Shown here one piece after another: positions 18,339 through 56,563 of a DNA stretch of 64,000 bases. A program made the position numbers and the translations under genes. How positions within the stretch are numbered: position 1 is the first letter of the stretch; every line of letters starts with the position of its first letter. This DNA is from Aphanomyces cochlioides. Lineage: Eukaryota; Oomycota; Saprolegniomycetes; Saprolegniales; Verrucalvaceae. The stretch lies in the NCBI GenBank assembly GCA_019828595.1, contig JAHQRK010000005.1, forward strand, positions 3,472,001 to 3,536,000, given 5' to 3'. Below the pieces are notes generated by a model that made no database searches, was not told the DNA's origin, and saw nothing but the letters and a program-made list of their open reading frames with translations.

Positions 18339-18412
18339 AGCTGCTTCAAGCTCGTCTCTCATGTTATATCTGTAAATCAATGAGTAATTTTACCCGTGCG
18401 TCTCATTCGTCC

Positions 18413-18651
18413 ATGCCGTTCGTCAACGGCGCTGCGGAATTGAACGCCAACATTCGCACTCGCAGCACTGAAATGGACATCTTGGAAGGCTATCGCTTCA
18501 GGTTCCCATCGCATCCATGCAGCAGCCCTCGACACCACCTCTGCACGACACCCCAACTACAGCCAAGCCCCCAGCACCAAACGCTCCTTCAGGTGGTTCA
18601 GTTGGTGCTGATGGACAATGTGGGAGTTCCGCCTACTCTGGTACGTCCTGA
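18413..18651 (+). pseudogene. GH7-CBM1 relic between the two cellulases
   Basis: A degraded and shortened third GH7 copy. It reads MPFVNGAAELNANI, RSTEMDILEG and PSHPC, matching the catalytic core of both neighbours. It then jumps to a Thr/Pro linker and GADGQCGSSAYSGTS in another frame, which matches the first half of the CBM1. Most of the gene is missing, and the Cys pair before the catalytic motif is lost. Confidence 0.85.
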
Positions 18652-22659: not shown

Positions 22660-24941
22660 ATATGCTTGAGGAGAGCGATGGCGCCCATGATAAAGTAGAT
22701 CGTAGCTTGTATTCCGAGCTGCAGGTGATATCTCATGAAGCCAACAGGAGTGCTTACCCGCAGATGCCGTCTGTTCCTTCTCATCGATATATCTCAAGAG
22801 TCTATTCACCGCTTGATATACTTCATGGAGCGAATAATCAAGATGATGGCTTTGCGCTAGAGGCTTTTTGGTACTGACAGCCCAGAGAAGGTGGTTGCTA
22901 TAGAAACAAAGGCGTCGTTCCAAAGTTATAGTCGCTACGATGTACAGCGTCACATGGTCGCATAGGAAACCAACCGAAATCTATGGAGACCTTGAAAGAT
23001 TTCCCAACTCCACTGATGTTGAGAATCGCTCAACAAGACTGGAGGTTCAAGGAATTTTGGTCTGAAATTACGTTTTCCCCGTCGCCTCCACTGAATTTCG
23101 ACCCGCTCCTTGAAGGACACACAAGAGCACTCCACATGGTTAAACGTCGCCTCTCAGCTGCAAATTCATTTTGTCTTGAGGCACAAAAGCTCATTCTGGA
23201 CCGCGGCTCGCATTATTCGTTGGCTTCATGGCAGAGTTTCGCCTCAAATCTCTCGTGTGGTGCACTGGCATTGTCGTTCCATAAACCTGTCATCCACTCT
23301 AATTTCAGCTCAGAATTTATTTAGTGTTAAATATAATACAATTAGACTAAAATAGTGTTGATTGTACTGTACACCACCGCGGCGACAATTTTTTTCCGTG
23401 GCGAGGGAAAAACTCTCCATCTTGGGACTGACGAGGTTACAAAAGGAAATCCATATCGCCCTGTCAATGTGGATGGTGGCGTTCTTTCCTTTGAGATTCA
23501 AATGGCCCCACAACAAGCGATCTGAGTGCCGCTGGCCACTTCAAGTAGCTCCCTTGACTGACAGAGTAGCTCGGAATCGAGGAATTCTATCATTTCAGTA
23601 CAATTCGGATAATGTTTCGTTATCCACCGCTATGATTGGCATCCGTCAAATCATAACGAAACGACCACGCACTACACGAACGATGCAACCTTATTATACG
23701 TACTCCCGTTGTAGTGAGCCAGAGGTGGAGAGTCAAACTATTATCCCAGAGGACAACTACCTTTGATGAGGGCGATCCCCCCTTGGAATTTCCCCCGTTC
23801 AATATTTCAAAGGCAACGAGTTCTAGAGGTTATATGTATTGGCCACCACGGAGCTAGCTATGTAGCCTTGTACGGGTTTCAACCTGGGCTTCTTACGCAT
23901 TTGCACGGTTTATGCTGTCGAGTTGACAACATCGTGGTTGAAATCTATCCGGATAACATGGTACCTGAGGAAATTCCTCGCTGGGAATGTATCTCCCAGT
24001 GAAAAGTGATAGGTTTGCACTGACTCTGCCCAAATATTTCACCAAGAACGTCTCCTGTTCGATCGTGTTCGATGCTGAATTCCTCCTCTCCATATTTAAT
24101 CCGAACAAAACAGACTGTGCTGTCATCTCTATACAATTACACAGAGCCTGCCACTCTGTAGCGTGTTTAGCTCACTCTGCTAAAGCTAACAGCTGTAAAC
24201 TTGAAAAGACTCGTTCTCGAAAATTTGCGGCTTTCGGCATTACCACCTGGAACGAACACATCAACGTTGGGAGATCTGTCACACATCCACGTCGATACAA
24301 AACGCACGTCTCGACGAATGCGATGCCACGGAGAAACGCCCACCAAGGCAAACAGAGTCCTTTTCGAATGTCCCAAGCTCTTTCTTTAGATATTGCTGCC
24401 ATCTTGCCGTGAGGGAAGGAAACCCCCCCGAGAATTTCCATCAAGTGATGGTCTCGCCATCTTTTCTCTGCAAGAAAGCCTTAAAACATTGAACTTCAAC
24501 AAGTCAACTCGCCTACATAAAAAACGCACCGGATTCGATACACGACGATATTCCTCATTTAAACAGTTCCATCCCATTCGTCACCATCACAATCTTAGAG
24601 CTTTGATCGCTAAGCTTTGAGTTTTTATCTTTGGGAGTGTTTTTAGCTCGAAAAAATGTGGAAGATCCACGTCGATATGGCTGATGTTCTATGGGTCGAT
24701 CTTGGAATCTCCAGCCTGGCTGTGGAGATTTTAAATTTTAGCCAATCAAATTGTCGATCCGAAGACGTGTTTTTTCCACATTTGCTGAATTGGGTGCGTG
24801 TTTCTATGAAGGATATCTTTGCGACAAAAAAGTTGGCGGCTGCCCAAATGACTTGGAGTTTGTATACTCTGTCGATCCGACAATAGAAATGGGATGCCAC
24901 AACTCGGCATTCCTCAATATTCCTGGAACCCCACAAGAAAG

Positions 24942-25448
24942 ATGGTCGATCTCACCGCCTTCACCACGTACCCTGCCAACCGCGTCGTCCTCGCGCGTCT
25001 CGGCGTGCTCATCACGACGATTATCTCGTTTTTCTGCAGCACCAAAGTCACTGGCCCAAGCTACGGTGACTACTGCTTCCTCGTCAGCTTTATTGCAATT
25101 GCCTACACGTTGTTGCATTCCTACTATGTGACCTACTTGAACGCTGTGCCGGTTGTCCATCTTCACCAACTCGTGACGGATGGTATCCTTGCCGTCTTGC
25201 TTTTGGCTGGTGGCATTGCCTTGGCTGCGTCGAACTGGGCCTCGTGGGGCTTGCCTGCTGCCGGCACGGTCACGATTGTCTTCTTGTTCATCGCGACCTT
25301 TTTCCAAGTCGCTGTAGTTGTGCTGCTTTACATCAGTGCTGCTCCTGCTGCTGGCCATGTCACGGAAACGCCTGCCAACGACTACGTCACTGTCAACACC
25401 CCTGTGTCGGATGAACCTGTCGTCAAGACCGTCGACCAAACTGCGTAA
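24942..25448 (+). CDS. Four-helix membrane protein 1 (tetraspan, MARVEL-like)
   Basis: A 168-residue integral membrane protein, first of the plus-strand array. The ATG at 24942 (MVDLTAFTTYPANRVVLARL) is preferred over an upstream one because it places the first helix as in the paralogues. Four hydrophobic segments lie at about 18-38, 43-63, 75-95 and 107-130. The family signature CSTKVTGPSYGDYCFLVSF joins helices 1 and 2, and the tail is Thr/Val-rich and cytosolic-looking (TVNTPVSDEP). The topology resembles MARVEL/tetraspan proteins, but that is fold-level resemblance only. Function unknown. It is the most divergent plus-strand member. Confidence 0.75.
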   Translation: MVDLTAFTTYPANRVVLARLGVLITTIISFFCSTKVTGPSYGDYCFLVSFIAIAYTLLHSYYVTYLNAVPVVHLHQLVTDGILAVLLLAGGIALAASNWASWGLPAAGTVTIVFLFIATFFQVAVVVLLYISAAPAAGHVTETPANDYVTVNTPVSDEPVVKTVDQTA

Positions 25449-27487
25449 TTTAGTGGACTAAAGTATTCAATGCACTCTGCACCTTGTGCACTTGTACTGT
25501 CATGACTCATGTCTTTCAACTTGTCCATCAAGAGATGAACTTCTCGATTGCATCCCATCACTGCCTGACTCAAACCTGACATTTCCATCAAGAGAAGACG
25601 GACGTGCACCCTACGTCTTCTCCGCCTCCTCCATCGCCTTGGATCTAGATGAAAACAGCACAACCACATGGAGAGATTGCGTCATGGCTACCTTTCCCAC
25701 TGATGATGGTCAAGTCGATGTCAACCAAGGAGTCCAATTCCACCCGCAATACCCAGCTACTTCATTCTCAAGTTCCCATCCTCTCCCAAGTAATTGGCTT
25801 CACTTCACAAAGCCAAGAGATGATGCCGACGAAATTTTCCAAAGCGCAAAATATAGCGGACGTGCGCGTGATAATCGAAATAAACCTTGAAAACCTAACA
25901 TAGTTGCAAGGTTTATTTAGGTTTATTTGTGTGTTCAGGTTAGGTTATTAGGTTGTTTTAACGCCAGTGCAGATGAAACACTGCTCTGACCTCGACAGCC
26001 TTCGGTGGCTATCGACGCCAGGGACTCTAGATGGCCAAAAGACGATCGCTCCACTTGGCCCTGACCTTGTCAACTGGTTTGCTTGTACTGAGAGGCCAAC
26101 GATAGCTTCAAACTCGACTGGATTCTTTTCTTTTGTCACCTCTTGCGACGATCTCACAGCCAGAAACCCCCAACGACTCTCATCTTTCCTCGAGTACATC
26201 AAAAGAGAGCTGTCGACTCACAAAGCCCCATGGAAATCGTCCCAAGAGTTGTTGACAATACCATATTTGACATGTTATAGCGGTGTGTTTTCCATTCGAA
26301 AACCTCCTAAATATAGTATTTTTGAGCAACTGTCAAAAAACTTATTTGAAAGGTATTTAATTCTTAAGGTGCTTCAACATTGATTGCACTGATAGCCTAT
26401 ATGTCTTGAATATTGAAAAATCATGAAATATTTTATTTCATGATATTGATATAGAGTTGTGTTCGTATGTCCCGAATAATTTAATAGAATTATTTTTATT
26501 AAATTAATCGGTTTTAAAAACTATGAAGCCATTTTCTTCAAGACGAATGAATCAGTCGGCTCCATGCGCACGCTTCGGTAGAGTCGACTGCTAGGTGTAA
26601 CTAGGCTAAAAAGCTCCAGTACATAAGCTGCTTCATTCAATGCATATGTACGTCATGGTTCGTTGCACGTGTGAGCGGTGGACTGCAGTGAACCTACGAC
26701 CAATGCTCCTCGATCCATGCTCCCCGACCACAAAAACAAATATCATGATAAAAATATACATGGTCAGACCTGAATATTAATATCATGATATCCATGGCCT
26801 GTTTTCATGATATTTCGAGTGTCTCCGAACACACGAAAATTACAAAATATCACAATAATTTCATGACATCCGAACACGTCATAAAATAATAATAAACAAA
26901 TCATAAAATACAGAAATTCTGAAATGATCTGACAAAGGCAAATTCTGTAGTCACATGCTGTGTAGTCACAGGATTGAGAGATTAGACCCAACTTTGACAG
27001 GTCACGCCCTGTCAAAGACATGGCCATTAAGCGCATAATGATCATTTTCCAAATTGCGTCCATCAGTACACTCTTAGGTCAATTGAATTTGAAAAAACCT
27101 CAGCATTTGATTTTTATTGAATATTAGAGGTATTTCCGTCAAAGTTTTCCTGTGCATTCAAATTCCATTTTGTGCACCTTAAAAATACACAGCTATATTG
27201 TCAAATATGGTACGTTTGCCGTCATCTCTTTAATGTAGATATGAACCGCCAGCGCCATGTCATCCATACAACATTCCGTCTTACTCGGTCATCTTTCTCG
27301 TCCTTGACATTATTCACGCCGGAGCAAACGATGATTGGCTGGATTTCGTTCCTAGAGCCTTTGGAGCTCCACACAGTTGTCACTTGCGACCTTGATGCCA
27401 ACATACATTTCAACATTGCAGAGTGAAGGAAGCGCCCCCCGACAGACAGCCATAAAATTCATTTTCGAATTGTCGTTGTGATTCTCA
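25449..27487. other. AT-rich intergenic region
   Basis: No supported gene. A perfect hairpin (11 bp arms, 3 bp loop) lies at 26420-26444, and several degenerate TCATGATAT repeats occur to about 26860. That may be an old MITE, but no clean ends were found. Confidence 0.45.
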
Positions 27488-27967
27488 ATGGGGTTCCTCA
27501 CGAAGAGGCGCGCTGTGATTGCTCGCTGGTTTGTCGTCTTGACGGCGTTGGTTGCGTTTGTTGGCTCGACCAAACTCACTGGGTTCCCAGGCGGCGACTT
27601 GTGTTTCCTCGCGTCCTTCGTCGTCTTTGCATACAGCGCACTCCAAGCATATTCGATGACCCACGAGAAGATCCTTCTCCTCTCTCGCACAGCGCAGCTT
27701 GTCTTTGATGTGCTGATCGCTGTCTTGATGATTGCTGGCGAATTTACCTGCTTCATGATCGGATTGCCGTTCACTGACTCATACTACCTCGGCCTCATCG
27801 TCACGATCATCGTCTTCTTTGCCTGCATCGCTCAGATTATTGTCGTGGCGTACATTCGCGCTACGCCAGCGGCAGGAACCAACGTCAACGATCTCTCCTG
27901 CGACTTGATCATTGCCGCTTCCCCAACGACTGCCAACGAAGTCTACGATGCCAAGCCCGTCGCTTAA
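27488..27967 (+). CDS. Four-helix membrane protein 2
   Basis: A 159-residue member of the array. The start MGFLTKRRAVIARWFVVL is shared with the next copies ([AT]FLT.R..[VL].AR), which fixes the ATG. Four hydrophobic helices lie at about 11-30, 38-58, 67-90 and 97-120. The inter-helix signature is GSTKLTGFPGGDLCFLAS, then YSALQAYSMTHEKILLLSR before helix 3. The tail ends ATPAAGTN...DLIIAASPTTANE, matching the tails of the broken copies downstream. Intact, intronless. Function unknown. Confidence 0.8.
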   Translation: MGFLTKRRAVIARWFVVLTALVAFVGSTKLTGFPGGDLCFLASFVVFAYSALQAYSMTHEKILLLSRTAQLVFDVLIAVLMIAGEFTCFMIGLPFTDSYYLGLIVTIIVFFACIAQIIVVAYIRATPAAGTNVNDLSCDLIIAASPTTANEVYDAKPVA

Positions 27968-28578
27968 ACAGAGAAGAGATCAAGGCATGTTCTATCACAA
28001 GTAAAAGAATTCTTGTCTTGTTGGATTTGAGATCGCACTGCGAGGCATCATTAAACTCTGTACATAGCTCCCCACCTGAAGGGGGAACTGCTGGAAAGAA
28101 CACCACGACGTGGGTCTCGACGCGGCTGCATAATAGTCAAATGGTCAACAACTAGCTTTCCCCTTCCTTGACAAGCGAGTGTTGTAGTCTTTGGCCTCAT
28201 GTTGTGGCTATGCACTGCGAAATCTCTTCAACCACCATCACGATATCGCTCTCTAAGGCCAAGTTGACGACATGGAGCCATGAAACTGTCAAAGCCGTTA
28301 GCTTGCACTCCATGTCATCCACTTTGTCAAGATTTGTCGTTCTATGGCCTCCACAACGTCAAGATCTTCTGGGTTGACTCTGGCAACGACAACTCTCTCG
28401 CCTATTAGTAATCCATGGCTGGTTATGGCTCCTGGAACCAACGGAGGCACTCTATGACAAATGTCAAGACAACTTACGACCGCCATGCCAACAAACACTT
28501 TGGCTGCAGAGTGAAGGGATCAGCCCACTCTGCCAGGTTGAGCTCATGGATTCCATTTTGAAAATTTCCTTGCAAGCC

Positions 28579-29045
28579 ATGACCTTCCTCACTCAAAGAC
28601 GCAGCGTCATCGCTCGCTGCCTCGTTGCTCTCTTGTCTCTAGTCGCGTTCATTCGCTCCATGCGGATGACTGGATTCGTTGGGATAGACTTTTTCTTCAT
28701 CTCGTCCTTTTTTATCTTTGGCTACAGCACACTCCAAGCCTACTCCAAGTCGTACCACAAGATCCTTCTCCTAAGATAGCGGAGATTGTCGTGGATGTCC
28801 TCACCGCCATTTCGTTGGTGATCTGCACAGTCGCGTTCACTATCTTTGTGTATGGCTTTGGCGAAGGCGGCTTGGCTATTTATGCCACAGCTTGCATCTT
28901 TCAAATCTTTGTCATTGCGTGCCACTGCGCTACGCCAGCGCCAAGTTCGAATACTGAGGATCAAACCCGCGATTTCATCATCGCCGATTCCCCAACAGCC
29001 ATCAAAGATGCCTTTAATGCCCAACAAGTCAAGTTCATTGCTTAA
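28579..29045 (+). pseudogene. Four-helix membrane protein 3 (frameshifted)
   Basis: A close relative of copy 2. The first half (MTFLTQRRSVIARCLVAL...YSTLQAYSKSYHKILLLR) stops at a TAG near 28777. The second half resumes a few bases later in another frame (IVVDVLTAISLVICTVAF...ADSPTAIKDAFN). Comparison with intact copies suggests loss of four bases in a CTCT repeat just before the stop. The flanking codons are still well preserved, so the break looks recent. Confidence 0.8.
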
Positions 29046-29232
29046 GTTGATGTTGCTGAATCATGTAGTGTATCTAAACCATTCAATGAGCTCTTGTCTC
29101 GTCGACGCGGGGACGAGTGCTACCTGCCATCAGCTTTGTCACGATATCCCAGCATGAATTTTGCCATGTCTGTGTCCCCCGTGGAAGATGAATGCCAAGC
29201 TGCCAGTGATTCATACTGAAACATCCGCTGCC

Positions 29233-29695
29233 ATGGCTTTCCTCACTGAGAGACAAGCCGTCCTTGCTCGTTGGTTTGTCGCGGTCTTGTCTCTCTCCGC
29301 ATTTGTTGGCTCCACGCAGTTGACTGAACACGCGCAGGGCGACTGAGCCAGCGCAGCTTGTCCTGGATGTCCTCACCGCCCTTTTGTTGGTCGCTGTCAT
29401 TCTTTACTTGCTGGGATCGATGTATTCTATCTACTTGTTTGACCTTAGCCTCGGCGGCTTGATCGTTGTCGCCATGGCTTGCTTCTTTCAGATCTTTGTC
29501 GTCACCAGCCATTGTGGTTCTTCACCAGCGCCAAGCACGAATGACCAAGATCAAACGCGCGACTTGACCATTCTCGACTCCCCAACGGCCATCAGTGAAG
29601 CGCACAGCATTCAGCAAGTCAAGACCATGTCGTGGTTTTCGTCAATATCTACAACATTAAAACGAGTTCGAGTTGTGTTTTCGCTGTCAGCCTAA
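29233..29695 (+). pseudogene. Four-helix membrane protein 4 (internal deletion)
   Basis: Starts MAFLTERQAVLARWFVAVLS and reaches GSTQLTEHAQGD, then hits a stop. The sequence continues at AQLVLDVLTALLL, so roughly 110 bases covering helix 2 and its following loop are missing compared with copy 2. The third and fourth helices and the tail (DLTILDSPTAISEAHS) remain. It cannot give the normal four-helix product. Confidence 0.8.
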
Positions 29696-30021
29696 AAAGA
29701 TGGCAGCTAAACAATCAGCCAAGTCGCGAGCAGAGGCCTGGAAATGCCACAGGAATGAATGGATGGCTCCCAATCATCCATTCTTTGAATTGGATGAGAT
29801 CAAACACTCCGGCGCATACATCGCTCTCGGTCCCATTAGGTAACAATGACGAGGTGGCTGTGTTGTCTTTGACTTTTAGGAGTCTAGGAGGTCGTCCTCC
29901 TAGTTCAAGTCAACTTACGACCGTGAATCCAGTCGCCAGTGCATGAAAACAAAGTCTGATTGAGCATGAATAGCACATATGACATCCGACCATTTTGGAA
30001 TTTTCATTGTCCAGCGCAGCC

Positions 30022-30492
30022 ATGGCCATCCTTCTCTCTGAAAAGCTCTCCCTTGCTGCTCGCTGGCTCGTCGTCGCCACGTCACTCACCGCGTTCCTTG
30101 GCTGCACGAAATTGAGTGGCTACGCATCCACAGACTTTTGTTTCCTCGCGACGTTTGTTGTCGTCATTTACAGCACACTCCAAGCCTACTCCATGAGCTT
30201 CACAAAGGTGTTGGCTCTCTCTCGCAAGGCCCAACTCGTCGTGGATGTCCTCTGTGGTCTGTTGATGCTCGCCAGTGGAATTATCCTTTACTTGAAGGGA
30301 GTACCATACTACTTCGCCCATGACGAGTGGAACCTCGCCAAGATTGTCAGCTACGTTGCTGCCTTCTTCCAAGGCCTCGTCGTGCTATGCCATTGCATTG
30401 CGGCAGCGCCAGATGCGAGTGATGACAACCAAGCTGACAGCTACGGCGTTGGCAATACCCCAACGTCTATCGCCCCAGTCAAGCAAGTCTAA
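30022..30492 (+). CDS. Four-helix membrane protein 5
   Basis: A 156-residue intact member. The ATG at 30022 is the one aligned with the other copies (MAILLSEKLSLAARWLVV). Helices lie at about 12-30, 40-58, 68-90 and 105-125. The signature is GCTKLSGYASTDFCFLAT and YSTLQAYSMSFTKVLALSRK. The tail (DASDDNQADS...NTPTSIAPVKQV) is shorter than in copy 2. It is the last plus-strand gene before the array changes orientation. Function unknown. Confidence 0.8.
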   Translation: MAILLSEKLSLAARWLVVATSLTAFLGCTKLSGYASTDFCFLATFVVVIYSTLQAYSMSFTKVLALSRKAQLVVDVLCGLLMLASGIILYLKGVPYYFAHDEWNLAKIVSYVAAFFQGLVVLCHCIAAAPDASDDNQADSYGVGNTPTSIAPVKQV

Positions 30493-30573: not shown

Positions 30574-31113
30574 TTATAGCTCGCAAGACGCAACGTCAGC
30601 GGCAGGTTGGTAGTCGGCGCGAGGCGTGGTGACACTGGCTGGGTCCAAAGGCGTCGTGGAACCGTAGACAGAGCGGCCATAGTAGAGCACTCCGAGCATC
30701 AAGAGTTGGTCCAGCACACCGATGAACAAAAAGACGATGCACGAGTAGAAAGCGCTGCAATTGAATGCCGTTCGAACACCCGATCGACACAAGATACGCC
30801 ACGAGCTGGAAGCCAAGGCAATGCCACCTGCCAGGAGACAAACCAGCAACACGGAGTCGACGACAAGCTGCGTCGAGTAGAGCAAGAGCTGTCCGCCTCG
30901 GATTTGCTTGGTCATGGCTTCAAAGGTCCAAACGCTGGCGTAGACAAACACAATAAAACTGATCAAGTAAGCGTAGTCGCCAGGGCTAACACCTGTCGTG
31001 GCAGTCGCAGTGATAAACGCAATCAGCATAATCACGGCCTGGGCGCCACGGAGACCAATATGCAGCGGGACATTGTGCGTGACTGCAATGTGCTCAAGGA
31101 TAGCTCGTGTCAT
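30574..31113 (-). CDS. Four-helix membrane protein 6
   Basis: A 179-residue member on the opposite strand, intronless, starting at 31113 (MTRAILEHIAVTHNVPLHIG) with a longer frame upstream. Four hydrophobic segments lie at about 18-38, 46-66, 78-103 and 120-145. Residues ATATTGVSPGDYAYLISF correspond to the TK.TG...D.CFL.SF signature. The loop between helices 3 and 4 carries extra Cys (WRILCRSG...FNCSAF). The tail is Thr/Pro-rich. It is convergent with copy 5, with about 80 bp between the stops. Function unknown. Confidence 0.75.
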   Translation of the reverse strand: MTRAILEHIAVTHNVPLHIGLRGAQAVIMLIAFITATATTGVSPGDYAYLISFIVFVYASVWTFEAMTKQIRGGQLLLYSTQLVVDSVLLVCLLAGGIALASSSWRILCRSGVRTAFNCSAFYSCIVFLFIGVLDQLLMLGVLYYGRSVYGSTTPLDPASVTTPRADYQPAADVASCEL

Positions 31114-43903: not shown

Positions 43904-46111
43904 ATGAGCTACAACGAAGATGGCACACATCAATGGGAGAATGACGACGACGTTGTCGAAATGCGTCTCTCGACAAATACACGCTACCAGTACAATACTA
44001 TTCTGCGGAGATTTCAAAGTTGGCTAGAGATGAACCATCCCGCGTGCGTCGAAAGTGGCAAAATTCGACTGCCTCTCGATCCCAGACTCTGCAAACAGTT
44101 TTTGTCGTACGAATCTACCGCGGTGGGAAAGAATAGAGCTTCGAAAACAAAGTTCAAGTCGTCTTCAGCCATCAATGGATGCAGGAGCGCAATTGCACAT
44201 CTCTATAAAGAGTCAAAGGTTAAGATGTCCGATGAGATGGCGACTCTGCTTTCTGGTACTCTAATCTATGTTTAATGTGCTATACTTATGTAGATTTCTC
44301 GAGTGGATACAAACGAAAGGTAGCGAAATTGAAAGAGGAAGGAGAAATGCCGATAGGTGAAGGGAAGAATGCAATGACAATAGATGGTAGTGTTTACCGC
44401 AGATTATATCTAACCTGTCTAAGGCTATTACTTCTTGTCAAGAAAGGCAATCCAGCGAGGAGAGAGCTACAAGGACTATCCCAATGCTCATGCCTTCTTG
44501 GTGTTTTGCTGGAACCTGGTTGCTCGTTGCGCAACAGTCGGTTCGATCCGATTTGATCATATATCTTGGGAAGGTACTGTTGACCGCATTGATTACATTT
44601 GACATGATGTAGTTGATGCATTGGTGGTTCAATATGCAATGATGAAAAATGACCAAGATGGAAAGAATTGCTCACCTCGCAGAGTCTTCGCAAATCCGCA
44701 AGATCCATTTATTTGTCCCATCTTAAGGTAGCACAGCCACATCACACTGGATTCTATAGTCCCTCGTAGTCTAGCACTCCTAGTATTTACCCGAGGAGCC
44801 CAACGACAAGGTTCCTCGACTCTCATCTTTGGTGAAAATGCAAAAGATCGATTTTCCGCTTGGCTGTCTAAAACATGCTTGCGCTACCGTGATGAAATGC
44901 TTAGTCTAGGAATATCAGCGGAGGAAGTTGGAACCCATTCTTTCAGAAAAGGCGTAGTGAGTAGTCTCTCCAACAACCCTGGTGGTCCAGCACATGCGTC
45001 AGTGTGTCTACGAGCAGGGTGGTCGCTCGGGCCAGTTCAAGGCCGATACATCTTCTCTGGACCGGGCGGTGACCAGTTTGTTGGACGAGCGGCAGCAGGC
45101 TTGTGTGTTCCTGTTGTCTAATCTAAATGACTGCTAGGATTGAATGTCTACACTAAAGATTTTGCAAGTCTCCCACCTCATTTTGTGGGGCAAATCCTCA
45201 ATTTACACGAATGGGAGACGATTTTACCTGGCTACGTGGACTTCTATCCCTCCTCGTTCCGTTCTGCCATACCCTTTATGCTTGCATCCTTGGTTCAGCA
45301 TCAAAACTGGCTGCGAGAGACACTGGATGAGAAGCACCCCTTGTTCTTTTCTCCTGTATGGATATCTGGCCTTTTGCCAAAGCTAGCTCACCGAGTGGAA
45401 GTTGGCTGTTTGTCTAATGAGAAGACCAAAATGAAAGCCACCGGAATTCCTCCTCATGTCATTATATCCGACCAAATTAGTACGCTCCAGCGACAAATGC
45501 GCGATATCATTTCGAGTATGAACGACATGCCATCGTCCGTCGCAGATCTTGTGTTGGCTCGGCTCAACAACATCGAATCTATCCAACCCCCAGAGGGCTT
45601 AGATCCATCTATAATCGATCAGCTATGCTCGAAAATCGTACATGAGATCCAAAAAATGAATCAGCAAAACGCCGACAATTTGCGCTCTCAACCGGCTGAG
45701 CTACCTCCTAGCTCGTCTGAAGTCCAATCTCCATGGTGGTCAAAAGAAAACCAATCTCAAATTGCAAGTGCAACTTGTCCTAAAGGCAAATTGTTTGATA
45801 TGTGGAATTTATGGTGGGGTGGCTTACCTGCTCAAAAGCTGCCACCTTTGCGACTTCGGTCGGCAAAAGACTTTTCTCGCTCGGTCGATCGTGTGAGCTA
45901 TTCAAAGCTCTCAAAAGTCATGAAAACACTCTTGTCGCACTCGGATGTAGATCCCCTTCATGTCCCGGGCCTCGACAATCCATCTCGAGCTGCTCTCTTC
46001 GTGACGTGCGTCGACCGTCTTGCGAGCGACTTGAACCTTGGGACGAAGAAAGAGCGGAAACTCGACGAAAATGATGCACTCTACAGTGTATGCACTTATT
46101 GTGAAGCATGA
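43904..46111 (+). pseudogene. Crypton tyrosine recombinase, copy 3 (nearly intact)
   Basis: Starts at 43904 (MSYNEDGTHQWENDDD) with a SAM-like domain (STNTRYQYNTILRRFQSWLE). Introns are recognisable near 44256-44293, 44572-44620, 44711-44770 and 45104-45137. Catalytic blocks are FCWNLVARCATVGSIRF (Arg), GTHSFRKG (H-x-x-R) and GRYIFSGPGGDQF (candidate Tyr). The C-terminal part has a coiled region (LQRQMRDIISSMND) and MWNLWWGG, the GCR1-like domain. It is only distantly related to copies 1 and 2. A frameshift near 44440, between YLTCLRLLLL and ESYKDYPNAHAF, is not explained by an intron, so I class it as probably inactive. Confidence 0.75.
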
Positions 46112-46998: not shown

Positions 46999-47326
46999 TT
47001 ACGCAATGAAAGTGCCGTCGATCACATTGGCATTTGTTGCGGGTGTTGGGGCAGCAGTAGGTGCACTTGTTGGAGCCGCCGTCGCTGCAGCATCGGACTC
47101 GACAACATCGTCGTCATCATCGTCATCATCATCATCGTCGTCGTCGTCATCGTCATCGTCGTCGTCATCATCATCGTCATCATCGTCATCATCGTCATCG
47201 TCGTCGTCATCATCATCGTCATCGTCGTCATCATCATCGTCATCGTCGTCATCATCATCGTCATCATCATCGTCATCATCGTCATCATCGTCGTCGTCGT
47301 CGTCGTCGTCGTCATCATCATCGTCG

Positions 47327-47362
<36 letters not shown>

Positions 47363-47754
47363 TCATCATCGTCGTCATCATCATCATCATCGTCGTCATC
47401 GTCGTCGTCCTTCTTGGCCTCGGTGGCAGCTTCAGATTCAGACGCCTCCACTTTGGCAGCAGCTAGACGACGTTCGGCGAAGGCGTCATCTTCATCATCG
47501 TCATCATCGTCATCATCGTCGTCATCGTCATCATCGTCGTCATCGTCATCATCGTCGTCATCGTCATCATCGTCGTCATCATCGTCGTCATCGTCGTCCT
47601 TCTTGGCGACAGATTGGTCGGCTTCGGCCGAGAGAGTGCGAAAGGCGTCAACTTGAGCTTGACCAGCTTCGACTTGTGCGACGGCGGCGTTGTCAGCTAC
47701 TTGGGCCGAAGCAATGGCAAGAGCACAGGCGATGATGGCGGCGAAGACCTTCAT
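46999..47754 (-). CDS. Secreted poly-aspartate protein 1
   Basis: A 251-residue protein with a signal peptide (MKVFAAIIACALAIASA) and a short N-terminal domain (18-52, helical, ends VAKK). An uninterrupted run of 35 Asp (53-87) is followed by a spacer (EDDAFAERRLAAAKVEASES, to about 115), then an uninterrupted run of 101 Asp (116-216) and an Ala/Thr/Pro tail ending VIDGTFIA. Codons alternate irregularly between GAC and GAT with no other codon inside the runs, so the repeat is kept at protein level. Two paralogues follow at 52.1 and 55.0 kb with the same layout but a different tail. The acidity suggests calcium or other metal binding outside the cell or in a vesicle; that is inference. Confidence 0.85.
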
Positions 47755-49107
47755 GAGTCTGTTCGATGGCTAATTCGGAAGTGAGCCAGTCGCGCTCGAC
47801 AATGCAACAGGCAGAGGAGATCGTCAAATTGACATGAAAAGGTCCAAAAGAACGACAAAAATATCCTAACTAGGAGAAAATTCGGACTTCCAACTGCAAA
47901 TCGTGTTGTCGATCGGCGGCAAATGTTCGACGCACGGCTGAGTTGTGCCACTCTGGCCTGAAGCCACCAATCGACGACGAAAACTGCGTTGTCTGCTCGT
48001 GCCAAGAGTGCCTCTGCTCACGAGCAAGGACACATGAGCTTTCAGGAACCCATTTTTCAGCCGACTTACCACGCAGCACCACCTGACGAACACCGGAGAA
48101 AGTGACCGGAGTAGAAGCGACATCCATGGAAGATGGATTCAAGGGGGATGTCCATCAGGGTGTAAGCTGGCGTTTGCACGTTGAGCTGTGTGTGGCAGCC
48201 TCGTGCCGATCGGTTGTGTCATGAGCACTTCTGGTGGTTGTAGAATGAAAAGCAAGTGTCTGCTGTTTAGAGTTAAAAGGTGGTTTCATTCTTTCGTCAG
48301 CCAAGTTTGATTTCGCATCACACGCATGCCATTTGACACCTTTTCCACCCAGCGTTGTAACCCATGAAGGTTTGAGAATCTACAAATGTACTCGGTTGCT
48401 TCTTGGTTAAACAAGAGCAGATCCATACGCAGTAATGGCAGCGAGCAGAAGAAGACTGTGGCCATGCTAAGCGATGACAGCTCACGAAATGTGCATGATC
48501 TCAGCGATGGAAGTTGATGGCTCTGGTTGGCTAGACTTCTCTGCTGGACTGTCTGTGGTCAAATGCAAGATGGAGATGCGACTGAAGACTATCAAGTTTG
48601 ATTCCAGTGTGCTATGTTGATGGCATGAATTCCGCGAAGTTCACCGGCCAGGAAGGTTAGATGGAAAACACTTTTGATAGCTATCTTTGCTTTCGCTTGC
48701 TGTGCTCTCATTTTCAATTGCACGTGAGCGAGATGCCTTTCACATCATTCCGTTCACTTGAAGACACGACTGACTTTGAATCCACAATTGACTGCCTAAG
48801 ATGGAGGAGTGAGCTAAAGCCATAGGCATCTCAGTTGTGGTAACCTTGACGACGAGATCCACAAGTTTTTCGACTGTCTTGTTAGCTTTCTCCTTTGTAC
48901 CCATCGGAGAGTTCAAGCTGCTTGTGCCGGTAATTGTAAGAAGGGTGCCAACGACGTAATTTTAGTCGTCGGATGTGGTGGTGCCCGGATCCAAAAACCG
49001 AGTCGGCGAGTACTGAACGCATGAAAATTTATACCTTTATTAATAAATAAATTTACAAGTATCGAATATGTGAGTATTCTGTGTCTACTACCTTGAGAAT
49101 CCAAATA
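47755..49107. other. Intergenic upstream of poly-Asp gene 1
   Basis: No supported gene; short frames only. The part next to 47755 should contain the promoter of the minus-strand poly-Asp gene. Confidence 0.5.
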
Positions 49108-50659
49108 CAGTCCGCGCGACATGGCTATACGATCACCCCGTCTTGAGGCTGTTCAATTTTAACCAATCACTTCTGGGCATCATAGCCAAATGCATAATGA
49201 AGTATTTTGATTTGCCAATATTATGGTGCCATCAGGGATAAAATTGATGGTGTTGACTCTGAGATATTTGCCTTCAAGTGAGCACAGGTATGTCAACGCG
49301 CGACATGGCTATACGATCAAGACGAATAACGCAGTCCCCTGACGCAATGCAAGCGTCATTCGTCAAGATCGTAGTCACAAATAACGCGTTAATCAATTTA
49401 CGTGACTTGACGCTCACTTTATTAAACATGTAGATGCCTAGAGGAAAGAAACTGACCGAGAAGGAGCAGGCCCAAATAGAGGCCTGGAATGTCGCCAACA
49501 AGTCTCAACGGTGGATTGCAAAGCAGCTTGGACGTTCACAAAGCTGTCTCTCAGCCTTCCTAACTTCTCCCGACACGTATGGCTCAGTAAAACGGACTGG
49601 ACCGACGTCAAGGCTGAACCCCACGGCAGTCCGCGCTCTCATTCGAGACGCCTGCAAAGGCAAATCGACGGCTGCACAGCTCCAAGCCGAAAACAAGTTG
49701 CCAATAGGCAAAAGACAAGACCAGAGAATCCTCCGATCAAGTGACCGTCTCAACTGGGAGAAGAGAAAGTCTGGTCCCTGGATGACAGCACAGCACTGTC
49801 GAAACCGAGTTGAATGGGCGACCCTCCGTATTACTGAGGAATGTCTGTGGCGTCAGATTATCTTCTCTGATAAAAAGAAGTTTAATCTTGACGGCCCAGA
49901 CGGTCTTCAGTACTACTGGCGGGATCTCCGGAAGGAGCCCCAGTATTTCAGCAAACAACAGAGTGGTGGTGGGTCTGTCATGGTTTGGGGTGGCTTTGCT
50001 GGTAGGGGGAAAACTCCTCTTGCATTTTTAGAGGGAAAACAAGACTCCACGAAGTACAGTTCGACTTTGGAGAATTTTCTCCTCCTCTCTGCGGCTCGAA
50101 TTGGGGGTGACTCTTGGGTCCTCCAGCAGGACAATGCGCCAATCCATTTTTCCAAGGCGACTAAAGATTGGATGGCCGCCAACAATATTCGTTTGTTGCC
50201 ATGGCCTGCACGTTCTCCTGATTTGAATCCTATGGAGAATGCGTGGGGCCAAATGGTGCGCACAGTTTACAAGAATGGCCGCACCTACAGTAGTCGGTCC
50301 GATTTGAAGATTGCAATTCAAAATGCGTGGAACCAGGTCAGCCAAAGCTCTCTCGACAAACTCCTTGCCTCAATGAATAAGCGTTGCGTCGAAATTGTAG
50401 CATTGAAAGGCCGTAGCATTGAAAGGCCGTAGCATTGACTATTAACTCAGTTAATGTCATGATCGTATAGCCATGTCGTGGGTCATTGAAGTAATATGTA
50501 GTTTGGTTAGCTTCTAACACACAAATGTCACTTACATGCATTGCATTCGAGCTCTCATGTTAAACTATCACTGTTCACCTCATCTAGCAGCATTTAATAT
50601 GGCGAGGAGACCAAAAATGGCTCCCAAAAGGGGTGATCATATAGCCATGTCGCGGACTG
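49108..50659 (+). mobile_element. Tc1-like transposon with IR/DR ends
   Basis: A 1552 bp element flanked by TA (49106-49107 and 50660-50661). Ends begin CAGTCCGCGCGACATGGCTA. The core GCGACATGGCTATACGATCA occurs twice at each end: at 49116 and 49300 on the left, and in inverted orientation near 50460 and 50634 on the right (spacing 184 and 174 bp). This double binding-site layout is the IR/DR structure known from Sleeping Beauty-type Tc1 elements. It encloses one transposase gene. Confidence 0.9.
49434..50432 (+). CDS. Tc1-family transposase (DD34E)
   Basis: Transposase of 332 residues. The N-terminal paired-like HTH pair (about 1-110; KEQAQIEAWNVANKSQRWIA) binds the inverted repeats. The catalytic core has FSDKKKFNLDG (first Asp), VLQQDNAPIH (second Asp) and PDLNPMENAWG (Glu), with exactly 34 residues between the last two. 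The glycine-rich VMVWGGFAGRG box is present. The frame is uninterrupted and the element ends are well preserved, so this copy may be recent or active. The final 12 codons include a small tandem repeat (KGRSIE-type). Confidence 0.93.
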   Translation: MPRGKKLTEKEQAQIEAWNVANKSQRWIAKQLGRSQSCLSAFLTSPDTYGSVKRTGPTSRLNPTAVRALIRDACKGKSTAAQLQAENKLPIGKRQDQRILRSSDRLNWEKRKSGPWMTAQHCRNRVEWATLRITEECLWRQIIFSDKKKFNLDGPDGLQYYWRDLRKEPQYFSKQQSGGGSVMVWGGFAGRGKTPLAFLEGKQDSTKYSSTLENFLLLSAARIGGDSWVLQQDNAPIHFSKATKDWMAANNIRLLPWPARSPDLNPMENAWGQMVRTVYKNGRTYSSRSDLKIAIQNAWNQVSQSSLDKLLASMNKRCVEIVALKGRSIERP

Positions 50660-52050
50660 TAATCGTGACATATTGAGAATTTTCTTCAAGTCAATTATTA
50701 ATATGTCTTCGGAAAGTAATTAGGGGTAATCAAAGCTCTCAAATTGTGTCGCTTTTATCGTAATTTTATTCAAATTAAAAGCAACAATATTGAAAGAAAT
50801 CACTCCAAGAAAAGTGAACTTGAGCAGGGGGAATCAAAGCTGAAGCAAAATGGTCAGTGAAAATGAAAGTTGTTTAAACCACATAAGACGATGCCGCGGA
50901 TGTCAGTAAAGACTCTATCCTTACAGCTATCAAGGTTTGTGTTATGTAGCTTGCTCTTCGGCATCCGTTGACGCTGCTTAAGCTCCACAGAGCCTTGTCT
51001 TGGAAGAGGCATGGATCATAGTACCCATTTGACTATGCTATAATAAAGTTCATATATATATAACCAATAAAGCAGCTTTTATTTTCAAAAGCACCTCCGG
51101 AGACGCTTTAATTTCTCAGCTCAAATAAAGCGGATTTTTCGTTATTTTATTTCAGAAATAAAAGCGAGCCGAAAATTTTAAAGCGAGAGCTTTGATTTGA
51201 TTACCCCTATTGACTCTCCTGTAGAAGGAAGAGATTACGTGACTACGCAGTGTACAACCAACGACATCATTGCGAGTTTTCCTGACAGACCTGTTGATTT
51301 CTCATGGATAAATGAAGCAACAAGGTCCCATATAGTCAATTTCATGATTTGTTTCGCTTTTGACATCGTTTTACGATATCCCTCCAGTCAGGTAACGACC
51401 ACAACTTGATATCTTGAAAATATGATATCATTTTTACATAAGTTTTCAAGTTCACAATGGTTTATGTAGAAGGTCCTAACAAGATAATTTATACCTTCAA
51501 AACATTATATATTCTACCCTGTTCCAAAGCATACAGATATCAGTATCTAACTTGGAAATGAGTACCTCTCTACGTGAATATTTTCCGACCAAAGTACACC
51601 TTTCACCACTCGCAGACTCGACTGTATCTATGTTATCACGAGCCTTGGATCGTCTTCTGCTGCGACTGCACCCAAGGAAAACGTATCCTGTTACAACAGT
51701 CGAAGCTGATGGTCGAGTAGTGTCCTGACTACTCGAAGTCCATCCAAAAGTACAAAAGTCTCAACTTGTCGGCCCGGTGCTACTACACTCACGCATGTCC
51801 CAAAGCAGCATCGACTCTTCGTTAAAATGTTCACTGGCCAGCGCGTTTCAACCCTTTGTTTTACGGCGGGGGACCCATTCTAGTCTCCATATGACTGCAT
51901 GTGGCCACCATCTTTCACTTGTTTGCGATACTAAAATATATATAAGAGTATATTATACTCTTCCCCATTCGTTCTCACAATTGGCAACCCAATGTGTTTT
52001 GGATCACGGCGGCATACGCTCCATTGCTCATTTTCCAAAACGATTCCTCC
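50660..52050. other. AT-rich intergenic; duplicated promoter of poly-Asp gene 2
   Basis: No supported gene. From about 51780 to 52050 the sequence is clearly similar to 54800-55031, the flank of poly-Asp gene 3. Shared pieces include GCATGTCCCAAAGCAGCA, CCATATGACTG.GTGTGGCCACC and GATCCTCC/GATTCCTCC directly before ATG. Promoter and gene were therefore duplicated together. Confidence 0.6.
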
Positions 52051-52728
52051 ATGAAACTCTTTACTATTGTCCTCGCCTGCGCCCTCGCCCTCGCCACCGC
52101 TCAAACGGCAGACTCTCCTGTCATGGTCCAAATCCAAGAGGCTGAAACTCAACTTGACGCTGTTCGTGGTCTGGCTGGTGAGGCTCAAGAAGCTGTCGCT
52201 AAGAAGGACGACGATGACGATGATGACGATGACGATGATGACGACGACGATGACGACGATGATGACGATGATGATGATGACGATGACGATGATGACGATG
52301 ATGACGACGACGATGATGACGACGATGATGATGACGACGATGATGATGATGACGATGACGATGATGACGATGATGACGACGACGATGATGACGACGATGA
52401 CTTCGCTGAACGTCGTCTGGCTGCCGCTGAAGTGGAGGCGTCTGAATCTGAAGCTGCTGTCGAAGCCAAGAAGAAGGACGACGATGACGACGATGACGAC
52501 GACGATGATGATGACGACGACGATGATGATGACGACGACGATGATGATGACGACGACGATGATGACGATGACGACGACGATGATGATGACGACGATGATG
52601 ATGACGATGACGATGACGATGTCGCTGCTGATGTCACCGCAGGTGCAAAAGACTACGAAACCTCCAATGAGGCCGTCATCAAGAAGCTCGAGAAGAAATC
52701 TGGCTCGGAGATCCAATCCGACCTTTAA
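52051..52728 (+). CDS. Secreted poly-aspartate protein 2
   Basis: A 225-residue protein. Signal peptide MKLFTIVLACALALATA; N-terminal domain to residue 52 (SPVMVQIQEAETQLDAVRGL, ending VAKK). An uninterrupted 65-Asp run (53-117) is followed by a spacer (FAERRLAAAEVEASESEAAV, to 142), a 48-Asp run (143-190), and a conserved tail with KKLEKKSGSEIQSDL. The start at 52051 is preferred because it aligns with both paralogues. Spacer and N-terminal domain are nearly identical to protein 3, and the tail is shared with protein 3 but not with protein 1. Function unknown; a secreted metal- or cation-binding polyanion is the simplest reading. Confidence 0.85.
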   Translation: MKLFTIVLACALALATAQTADSPVMVQIQEAETQLDAVRGLAGEAQEAVAKKDDDDDDDDDDDDDDDDDDDDDDDDDDDDDDDDDDDDDDDDDDDDDDDDDDDDDDDDDDDDDDDDDFAERRLAAAEVEASESEAAVEAKKKDDDDDDDDDDDDDDDDDDDDDDDDDDDDDDDDDDDDDDDDDDDDDDDDVAADVTAGAKDYETSNEAVIKKLEKKSGSEIQSDL

Positions 52729-55031
52729 GGAGAGCTTAAGAAAAATATGTATTGACAATTTTCATCCGACTGCAACCCCGCAATGTTCACAAAACTGTGT
52801 CACCCATTCAACATTGACGCAGCTGGGACGGTGCCTATAATGAACGCAGTGAACTGTGCCATGTGCATGGCATCGGTATTTGCTGCTCACCATTCTTGCC
52901 GTGATGTTGTTATCCTCTTTGTCGCTTCTTTTCGACTGTATCAAAGCCACTTGGACTGGTCTAAGAGCGACAGGAATTTTGAGAGACTGAAGCAGCTTCG
53001 TCCTCTTTCGTCATGGTCAGACAGACTGCAAACGCACAAGCGACGCTAACGGCTCGTGATATCCTCATGGATCCATGAGCACAAGCGACCAGACCAAGAC
53101 TGCTGAGCTTCTCGATAAGACGGCCATCCATGATGCAACATCTATTCTTCTCTCAAGTGTCTCCATCATTTTGGATAAGTCGCATGTTGCATTCTGGTGG
53201 AGTGTCTCGACAGCAAATGTTCGACGCAAGCTCTCCATGGCTACCGGTACAATGCTCAACGAGCGGGACGTCTGAGCTCGCTGAACATCCATGTTTTCAG
53301 CGGAGTGTTGTGGATTTACCAGCATCAGCCCCCGTTCGCGGAGATCTGGTCAAACGGCGACGGCAATCGTTCTGCTATCGGCAGTGAGCATTCAAGATTT
53401 CTACCTTCTCTGATGGCGGGCTTTGTGATTGATAACTTGGGGCATGCTCAGGGAAGTTTTGGCAGTTCATGACGCGAATAAGGATCAAAGCGATAGCTAT
53501 AGATGACTTGTTTCCTGGACTTTCGTTGCGCGATGTGTCTATACTCGAATGCAAGGCGTAGATTTGAGCAAAGAGTGCGAAGACAACGACTAGCGTGCTG
53601 ACTTCAGCGTAGCTAAGCAAAGATAATCGACGCACCTGACTCAACAGCTCTGTAGATTAGACATCGATCCTGAAGGCTGGCTATCTTTGTTTCAACTGCG
53701 GCAAGAACAGTGTGGAATCGATAGTGAGTGAACGACAGCAAGGGCCACTGCAGTCTTTGCAAGCTTGTTAGAGACACTCACATGTAGGGCCTCCGAGAGA
53801 TTCTTGTCAAGATCTCCTCCGCTTTAGAACTGTGATAAAAGCAGTGCTTTTGCCGTTCATGCTCGTCGACTGTTGTGCATCCAAGCACGAAGAATCGTCC
53901 CTGTCGTTGTATTCACACGAGAGATCAGTCCATCCTCCTCATCGTGAAATGTCTGCTTAATGCAGTGTGTTTTCAGTAGATGGAGAACTTGATGTTATAC
54001 TCTCGAGTAAATCAAATGATTTACAATTTTGATAAGTTAATCTTTTATTTCACATTATTATTCAAAACAGTATGAATATTTGTATGAAATTTAATAAATT
54101 TTCTTCGGAGAGAAAACGCAAATCCACAGATTTACTGGAAGGAGAGCCAATCAAACATCAAAGAATTCACAAAAATTTCCCCAATTATGATCGATGTTGC
54201 ACTGCGAAGCAAGCAAAAACCGAAGCAGAAGCCTGTGCTCAAAGGCTATGCATCGAACAGTGAACAGGTAAATGTGGTTAGTCTTGACCAGCACGGCAAC
54301 TTCCTTCGGCCGAGCTCTGAGGCTAAAGATGGGACAACATTAAACTTATCGACTGGTGAACGTTGTGCCATCTTTAACTCCAGAGCTTGGCCATTTTCTT
54401 TCAGTTCCAGAGATGTGTCGTGCATGTAGATTATGGAAGGACATATTTTAGTTTGTGCTACTTGCGCAATCAATACATTGTTCCTTTAGCGGAATCAAAA
54501 GCCGCTTACCTTATATGCGTACTTCTCTGGATCGTTCCATCAATCTGATCCAGAGAAGCACTGCGCTGCAAGCTGCGTGCAGAAAGTTTGGCTAGACTTC
54601 ATGTAGTGATCGGGCTGGTGCCTTTCCAAATTAACTATTTCAGCCAATCTCAACACATCATCCAACTCATTGCACTCTAATTGGACGATAATCTTGTGTA
54701 AATCCACCGATTTACGTTTTCTGACAAGTCATTTAATCGAGACAACACTGTTGCTCCAAACTGGCCATGCGATGGTTTGAACAACCAAAACAAAGGACTC
54801 CACGAAGATGATTTCAGCGCATGTCCCAAAGCAGCAGTGACTCTTCGTCCAAATGTGCATGGGTTTCTGTGGTGGAGGACTCTGTCTCGTTGCCATATGA
54901 CTGTGTGTGGCCACCCAGACAACCTGGTTGGACTATGCACATACTGTCGCCCAATCGTCCTCACGATTGACAACCCGAAAAGTTTTCGATCACGCCGGCA
55001 TAAGCCTCTCATTTTCAAAAACAGATCCTCC
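52729..55031. other. Intergenic between poly-Asp genes 2 and 3
   Basis: No well supported gene. A minus-strand frame at 53375-53644 has a hydrophobic segment (VSTLVVVFALFAQIYALHSS) and could be the first exon of a small membrane or secreted protein continuing towards 53065, but the join is uncertain. The last 230 bp are the duplicated promoter described for gene 2. Confidence 0.35.
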
Positions 55032-55742
55032 ATGAAAGTCTTCGCTCTTGTCCTTGCCAGCGCTCTTGCCTTCGCCACCGCTCGATCAGCGGACTCTCCA
55101 GTCATGGTCCAAATTGAAGACGCTGAAACTCAAGTCGACGTTGTCCGTGCTTTGGCTGCTGAGGCTCAAGAAGCTGTCGCCAAGAAGGACGACGATGACG
55201 ACGATGACGATGATGACGACGATGATGACGATGATGACGATGACGATGACGACGATGATGACGATGATGAAGATGACGCCTTCGCCGAACGTCGTCTCGC
55301 TGCTGCCAAAGTGGAGGCGTCTGAATCTGAAGCAGCCATCGAGGCCAAGAAGGACGACGACGATGATGATGACGATGATGACGATGACGACGATGACGAC
55401 GATGACGATGACGACGATGACGATGATGATGATGACGATGATGATGACGACGACGATGACGATGACGACGATGACGACGATGATGACGATGACGACGATG
55501 ATGACGATGACGACGATGATGACGATGATGAAGATGACGCCTTCGCCGAACGTCGTCTCGCTGCTGCCAAAGTGGAGGCGTCTGAATCTGAAGCAGCCAT
55601 CGAGGCCAAGAAGGACGACGACGATGATGATGACGATGATGACGATGACGACGATGACGACGATGACGATGACGACGATGACGATGATGATGATGACGAT
55701 GATGATGACGACGACGATGACGATGACGACGATGACGATGAT

Positions 55743-55774
<32 letters not shown>

Positions 55775-55910
55775 TGACGATGACGACGATGATGATTTTG
55801 CTGGCGACGAAACGACAGGAGCAAACGACTACGAACATGAAAACATCTCTGTGGTGAAGAAGCTCGAGAAGAAATCAGGATCGGAAATCCAAGCCGACGC
55901 TGATCTTTAA
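55032..55910 (+). CDS. Secreted poly-aspartate protein 3
   Basis: A 292-residue protein and the longest of the trio. Signal peptide MKVFALVLASALAFATA; N-terminal domain to 52 (VMVQIEDAETQVDVVRALAA). Asp runs of 27 (53-79), 59 (108-166) and 61 (195-255) are separated by two identical 28-residue spacers (EDDAFAERRLAAAKVEASES...AKK). The tail is FAGDETTGANDYEHENIS and then KKLEKKSGSEIQADADL. The spacer-plus-run unit is duplicated at DNA level with a 261 bp period, including the same GAC/GAT order, so one unit was added recently. No interrupting residues occur inside any run. Function unknown. Confidence 0.85.
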
Positions 55911-56230: not shown

Positions 56231-56563
56231 ATGAGGATGTCACTTGCTGCCATGATAGCTTGTATGTTTGCCGTCAACAGTCTCTCTACAGGAACTTCAG
56301 CTCTGAAGGAAGACTTAGCAGCGTCTCTGACGCATGTAGATGACGCTGATTCGGATATTCACCGCTCTTTGACGAGTCCAAGTGGCCTTGATGATGAGGA
56401 GCCAGAGAACAACGAGGGTGATCATGACATTGACGAAGAAGAAATCGCACGACAAAACGACCCAGAGTGGCAAGAATGGCGAGCAAACACTGATATCGAG
56501 TACATTCCACCGTCGTTGGCTGACGAGGAATACGACGAGTACATTGAAGCTGATGCATTGTAA
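56231..56563 (+). CDS. Small secreted acidic protein
   Basis: A 110-residue protein. The ATG at 56231 begins a signal peptide (MRMSLAAMIACMFAVNSLST); the frame is open further upstream without such a signal. The mature part is rich in Asp and Glu, with short acidic clusters (HVDDADSDIH, DDEEPENNEG, DIDEEEIARQ, DEEYDEYIEADAL) and one PEWQEWR segment. There is no cysteine pattern and no known domain. It lies just after the poly-Asp genes and shares secretion and acidity but no sequence with them. Function unknown. Confidence 0.65.
   Translation: MRMSLAAMIACMFAVNSLSTGTSALKEDLAASLTHVDDADSDIHRSLTSPSGLDDEEPENNEGDHDIDEEEIARQNDPEWQEWRANTDIEYIPPSLADEEYDEYIEADAL

Follow-up and report, generated by a model that had tools for sequence, protein, structure and literature searches.

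Uninterrupted poly-aspartate tracts in secreted-looking proteins of Aphanomyces cochlioides: a possible modular, cation-binding appendage

Uninterrupted runs of aspartate (Asp) recur in a set of secreted-looking proteins encoded by Aphanomyces cochlioides (Saprolegniales), the cause of sugar-beet root rot. Three of the genes, here called A, B and C, lie within 9 kb of one another in a stretch of 64,000 nucleotides (the window; bases 3472001-3536000 of contig C45, in a genome of 76.2 Mb and 94 contigs), and at least 20 are found in the genome. Read from sequence, the architecture is one of secreted-looking proteins in which a pure Asp tract with recurrent borders stands alone or beside known domains. 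The tract may be a polyanionic module that binds cations and is appended to secreted Aphanomyces proteins, some of them directed to the wall, a reading given a probability of roughly 45%. Its architectural part is the firmer one; the binding of cations is suggested by the chemistry of the tract and by the company of CBM1, PAN and protease domains.

The poly-Asp genes of the window

An earlier, sequence-only reading had described three open reading frames (ORFs) with Asp runs of up to 101 residues, each with a signal-peptide-like start, an N-terminal part ending VAKK and a spacer FAERRLAAA.VEASESEA. The ORF list and codon table agree with this description in positions, run lengths and shared parts (the spacer reads FAERRLAAA[KE]VEASESEA), as follows.

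46999..47754, minus strand: gene A, 251 aa, secreted-looking, Asp runs of 35 and 101 (ORF, codon table)
47599..47754, minus strand: A, N-terminal part, signal-peptide-like start and about 35 residues ending VAKK
47494..47598, minus strand: A, Asp run of 35, all GAY (codon table)
47410..47493, minus strand: A, spacer EDDAFAERRLAAAKVEASESEAATEAKK
47107..47409, minus strand: A, Asp run of 101, all GAY; codon order as complex as in shuffles (18 Lempel-Ziv (LZ) phrases vs 18.1 shuffled)
52051..52728, plus strand: gene B, 225 aa, secreted-looking, Asp runs of 65 and 48
52207..52401, plus strand: B, Asp run of 65
52402..52476, plus strand: B, spacer FAERRLAAAEVEASESEAAVEAKKK
52477..52620, plus strand: B, Asp run of 48
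55032..55910, plus strand: gene C, 292 aa, secreted-looking, Asp runs of 27, 59 and 61
55188..55268, plus strand: C, Asp run of 27
55353..55529, plus strand: C, Asp run of 59, its first 41 third positions the same as in the run of 61
55614..55796, plus strand: C, Asp run of 61
55188..55796, plus strand: C, internal tandem repeat of the run-spacer unit, period 261 bp, 2.3 copies, 95% matches (Tandem Repeats Finder)

By simple arithmetic, the chance of Asp runs this long in random sequence is negligible. Gene C has two spacers, and its start is placed at Met 55032 and not at the upstream in-frame ATG at 54897 because of homology with A and B. The claim that the runs use GAC and GAT alone holds for all 396 run codons; the exclusion of Glu that went with it does not extend to three homologous tract ends of the form ...D(n)EDDA-FAERR (A run 1, C runs 1 and 2).

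A wider set of poly-Asp genes

To speak of a trio is too narrow, as at least 20 genes of the same genome carry uninterrupted Asp runs of 23-101. On contig C5, a genome search with the non-Asp parts returned two close relatives of A-C that are separated by 11 kb and are termed D and E; beyond A-E, no fewer than 15 additional pure-Asp genes came to light. A gene was counted as a member if it had an unbroken Asp run of 23 or more. Because the search scores best candidates only and some weaker matches were left unfetched, the total is a minimum. Native gene B as genome query gave 46 matches, most of whose loci were read; a second list of 191 matches, dominated by CBM1, was not fetched, so the count stays at 20 or more. 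A real family with variable run length, as the sequence-only reading had proposed, is thereby borne out by relatives within the genome. Pfam scores below are from a scan of A-C, L032, L037-L042, L046-L049 and L066-L068.

D: Asp runs of 79 and 71
E: Asp runs of 69 and 69
L066: run of 48; Trypsin, 162.9 bits (cut-off 20.6)
L069: run of 27; assigned as a trypsin solely by alignment to L066, across the trypsin domain
L070: run of 23; trypsin by the same alignment
L041: run of 30; Astacin (M12A), 64.1 bits (cut-off 22.5)
L046: run of 23; Astacin, 82.3 bits
L068: run of 62; Astacin, 73.7 bits
L037: run of 100; CBM_1, 25.3 bits (cut-off 20.6)
L042: runs of 53 and 80; PAN_1, 22.5 bits (cut-off 21.4)
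L048: run of 87; Elicitin, 24.4 bits, just below the cut-off of 25
L040: run of 31; sub-threshold matches only, to acidic families
L032: runs of 54 and 58; no Pfam domain in the scan
L039: runs of 75 and 68; no Pfam domain in the scan
L038: run of 41; no Pfam domain in the scan
L047: run of 45; no Pfam domain in the scan
L067: runs of 45, 16 and 52, separated by single Val; no Pfam domain in the scan

Proteins A, B and C each match no Pfam family at E <= 0.01. At least ten other fetched loci (L043-L045, L050, L051, L055, L058, L061-L063) encode mixed Asp/Glu proteins with a longest Asp run of at most 14 and are left uncounted, as is L049 with its run of 15; under the criteria used, L052, L057, L060 and L064 have no acidic tract. 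In the window itself, an ORF just downstream of gene C (56231-56563) encodes a secreted-looking protein of 110 aa whose body is rich in both Asp and Glu and is not of the pure-Asp kind.

In the trypsins L066, L069 and L070 poly-Asp forms a C-terminal tail ending YAGRL at the position where two other trypsin-like ORFs, near E, have a Pro/Thr-rich tail instead, a swap of one tail for another. The astacin L041 (C23:3.232 Mb) has a Lys/Arg-rich basic tail right before its 30 Asp, a plus/minus charge pair that could fold back on itself.

Secreted-looking starts are present in all 19 members with a complete N-terminus. The call comes from a crude hydropathy test of 17 proteins (A-E, ten of L032-L048, L049 and L067), in which N-terminal hydrophobic cores reached 2.46-3.11, against at most 1.08 in six mixed Asp/Glu controls chosen from the fetched loci. 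The starts of L066, L068 and L069 were judged signal-like by eye; that of L070 lies just beyond the fetched stretch, with most of the hydrophobic core visible. An endoplasmic reticulum retention tail was considered and rejected: the terminal DL of B and C is not known to be a retention signal, and it is missing from A, D and E. An RXLR effector identity was also rejected: L037 scored 19.7 bits vs a Pfam cut-off of 26.9, and that profile had no listed match in the 16 further poly-Asp proteins of the scan, L049 among them. RxL-type motifs (RSLR, RRLEE, RRLTE, RRLAD) adjoin Asp runs in L037 (C56:3.268 Mb), L032, D (L012), E (L013) and L039, and may reflect either chance or a site of processing. 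Finally, no solved relative of the N-terminal and spacer part emerged; a profile built from five masked sequences had OXA1L chains as its sole matches, and their E of 0.38 is taken as chance.

The tract borders recur. Counted over 28 tracts, with L049 included and L069 and L070 omitted, Lys stands at position -2 in 25 (16 of the 19 first tracts per gene), compared with 8.9% Lys outside runs. Position -1 is Lys in 14, Ser in 7, Asn in 4, Gln in 2 and Thr in 1, and position +1 is Phe, Val or Tyr in 19. The commonest form is K[KSN]-Dn-[FYV][AV][EG], and similar borders flank the tract in otherwise unrelated proteins: SKS-D-YAG in a trypsin, KKS-D-YAG with CBM1, KKS-D in an astacin and SKK-D-VVE in the elicitin-like protein.

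A proposed role for the tract

As a cation-binding appendage, the tract, presumably disordered, would act outside the cell or in secretory vesicles, where its 23-101 carboxylates would bind Ca2+ and other cations. Such binding could bring about condensation of the carrier protein inside vesicles and, once it is released, could hold it by cation bridges to acidic polymers of cellulose/pectin walls, or to basic surfaces. The tract would thus be a charge-based binding tail with a job akin to that of a CBM, and the domain-free A-E may belong to the same system as polyanions that are either soluble or held in the wall. The "cation buffer" of the sequence-only reading is chemically plausible only. 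If the appendage is real, a single-residue tract can act like a domain, reused across the secretome and kept pure despite fast DNA turnover. The similar natural trypsins with 23, 27 and 48 Asp, together with their Pro/Thr-tailed relatives, make the role of the tail directly testable.

A related view, tentative and leaning to the doubtful side, is that the homopolymer is a true portable module, pure poly-Asp having been put on many unrelated secreted proteins, with recurrent junctions, in an Aphanomyces lineage. A charge-based targeting, packaging or retention tail would here replace a folded binding domain; selection would see residue identity and approximate length and not order; and the set may have been overlooked as repeat masking hides the genes from prediction.

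Instead of a binding tail, secreted poly-Asp could be a polyanionic decoy that absorbs cationic host defence peptides, histones or basic proteases and so shields the hyphae. The extreme negative charge and secretion-like starts agree with this chemically, and repeated run-spacer proteins free of other Pfam domains (A-C, L032, L039) would suit a sponge. Left unexplained, however, are the presence of the tract on trypsin, astacin, CBM1 and PAN proteins and the near-exclusive use of Asp over Glu, and a decoy is considered unlikely.

Selection and turnover

The mixing of GAC and GAT had been taken to mean that Asp is under selection. In outline the argument is sound and Asp identity appears constrained; slippage must be allowed for. 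Across 27 tracts of 19 sequences (L069 and L070 not among them) there are 902 GAT and 780 GAC, 1682 Asp codons in all, and only nine interruptions: five GAA, three GTC and one TAT. Gly (GGY) and Asn (AAY), the products of transitions at positions 2 and 1, do not occur in these tracts. Replacement and silent changes are thus not equally free in the coding tracts, and a plain microsatellite is ruled against by the absence of Gly and Asn. The argument draws on coding tracts and presupposes no mutational bias towards third positions. An antisense poly-Ser gene opposite A (open frame 47006-47656) was set aside on the third-position pattern: of the 1687 sense GAN codons in the 27 tracts, 1682 have C or T in third place, which fits a constraint on Asp because Ser (TCN) on the other strand would permit any base.

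Overall, GAC/GAT order is less complex than in shuffles (303 LZ phrases vs 343), and 7 of the 11 runs of A-E are significantly more repetitive than shuffles, so that part of the mixing was copied by slippage. The two closest trypsins, L069 and L070, differ before the tract at 24 of 687 bases (96.5% identical). GAC/GAT order in their two tracts is no more similar than in shuffles, 73% of which attain the score, and both tracts, of 27 and 23 codons, are pure. Tracts therefore turn over fast while staying Asp-only, a combination that selection for Asp explains and slippage alone does not.

In close pairs, most of the non-Asp flanking sequence, read in the Asp frame, shows purifying selection. By a simple counting method on short sequences, synonymous (dS) and nonsynonymous (dN) divergence in the N-terminal parts is dS 0.40, dN 0.12 for B-C and dS 0.61, dN 0.19 for D-E (dN/dS about 0.3). 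The spacer is the best-conserved part between the two loci, with dS 0.63 and dN 0.04 for B-D.

In the mutation-driven alternative, GAY microsatellites grow by slippage and are tolerated, functionless, in the disordered ends of secreted proteins. The quick turnover of tract length and order, the 261-bp repeat in C and the repetitive codon order would all follow from it. Slippage does not spare positions 1 and 2, yet Gly and Asn are absent, and neither confinement to secreted-looking proteins nor recurrent borders would be expected; on this evidence the alternative is improbable.

Promoter-like signals

Sequence upstream of the start codons was scored against a 16-nt consensus, GCTCATTYYNCAWTTT, which we take to represent the oomycete core promoter. 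As described in excerpts of PMC3599244, the core promoter of P. infestans consists of an initiator (INR; YCAYTYY, most commonly TCATTCT) and a flanking promoter region (FPR; MWTTTNC), commonest within 50-100 nt of the start codon and seen in Saprolegnia too. E matches at 15/15 and D at 14/15, both with TCATTCT; the best of 4000 random stretches of the window reached 13. Matches in the window are these:

47771..47786, minus strand: A, core-promoter-like match, 12/15 at -32, score within background
52026..52041, plus strand: B, core-promoter-like GCTCATTTTCCAAAAC, 12/15 at -25, score within background
55007..55022, plus strand: C, core-promoter-like TCTCATTTTCAAAAAC, 10/15 at -25, score within background

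The matches of D and E and the shared position of the best matches support real, transcribed genes, which is not proof of expression.

Points that weigh against the appendage

Several observations count against the reading of the tract as a selected, cation-binding appendage. The sequence evidence favours neither calcium nor basic proteins as the partner. Repetitive codon order in 7 of 11 runs implies fewer independent silent changes than the raw mixing suggests. Constraint on the flanks is not uniform: L069 and L070 differ at 11 residues, dN is close to dS in the N-terminal parts of A-D and A-E, and in the D-E spacer dN is 0.17 vs a dS of 0.28. Related members may have common borders by descent, which would account for part of the recurrence. 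As to promoters, the 14 genes other than D and E score 9-12, the background level; only the clustering of best matches at -24 to -34 (15 of 16 genes) is striking, and that is a raw count. L049, with its mixed acidic region, has no promoter match at the usual place.

Comparison with known systems

The acidic stretches of calsequestrin and asporin are linked with calcium binding; they are much shorter, or mixed Asp/Glu, unlike the poly-Asp found here. CBEL-type wall lectins have the CBM1 and PAN/Apple domains also seen among the poly-Asp carriers; in A. cochlioides CBM1 and PAN sit on separate genes, and we know of no poly-Asp tract in CBEL. Aspein of the pearl oyster differs in being an animal biomineral protein. 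To our knowledge it has no FAERRL-type spacer, and its tract is not common to proteases, CBM1 or PAN proteins. Excerpts of PMC9496343 describe aspein as an extracellular shell matrix protein with a signal peptide, an uncharged N-terminal region and then Asp-rich domains, made of DA and poly-D and not conserved between species. Its plan of a signal peptide followed by poly-D is found here as well, as judged from the runs and the crude hydropathy test.

This similarity is what might favour a mineral modulator, steering or dissolving calcium salts such as calcium oxalate in roots. Proteases or proteins with binding or elicitin-like domains make up 9 of the 20 carriers, no mineralised structure in this organism is known to us, and the idea, for which there is no specific support, is very improbable. 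Equally far-fetched is a proprotein from which Kex2-like proteases, cutting at Lys-Lys before and Arg-Arg after the runs, release free poly-Asp peptides: KK-D(n)-FAERR-L borders recur in A-D, but 14 of 28 tracts have Ser, Asn, Gln or Thr immediately ahead of the run, and many runs have no Arg-Arg after them.

Also comparable are the modular secreted proteases of A. euteiches, of the same genus, which according to excerpts of PMC10084794 carry an extra C-terminal CBM1, PAN, ML or CAP module. The module appended in A. cochlioides differs in being a homopolymer; by analogy, poly-Asp looks like another C-terminal tail of this type.

Database searches and annotation

Residues 1-53 of B had no match at E <= 10 among 25 candidates from a set of 5.8 billion proteins, the candidates being proteins of about 0.55 to 1.75 times the length of B. 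Whole B likewise had none at E <= 10 among 2963 candidates, a result that probably reflects composition bias. The set does hold deposited A. cochlioides proteins, e.g. AC1031_017769, as a control search with a GH7 protein of the window showed, and gene B is therefore probably missing from the deposited proteins or held there at a very different length. Simple-repeat masking before gene prediction would explain this gap, and poly-Asp proteins generally may be absent from annotations. Open-licence main texts (supplements fell outside the scope) yielded no report of an oomycete poly-Asp protein: text matches in PMC8780586, PMC5907361, PMC4316629, PMC10084794, PMC13327255 and PMC3681718 contain none, and neither "acidic" nor "DDDD" occurs in the main text of PMC10084794.

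Neighbouring features of the window

Between A and B lies a Tc1/mariner-like element (49117-50650) with inverted CGACATGGCTATACGATC-type ends and an inner pair; its transposase ORF (49434-50432) matches DDE_3 and HTH_Tnp_Tc3_1 in Pfam. Three ORFs (3765-4847, 13755-15407 and 45278-46111) look related by eye, the first two having GTHSIRKG, and are perhaps tyrosine-recombinase (Crypton-like) elements; 45278-46111 has no Pfam match. Two adjacent GH7 cellobiohydrolase-like ORFs occupy 16404-21485, the first recognised by eye only and the second (19899-21485) carrying GH7 and CBM1 by Pfam and being 92% identical to an A. euteiches protein. A row of small multi-pass membrane protein ORFs, alike by eye, runs from 24894 to 30492 on the plus strand and from 30574 to 31113 on the minus strand, and is perhaps a local paralogue cluster.

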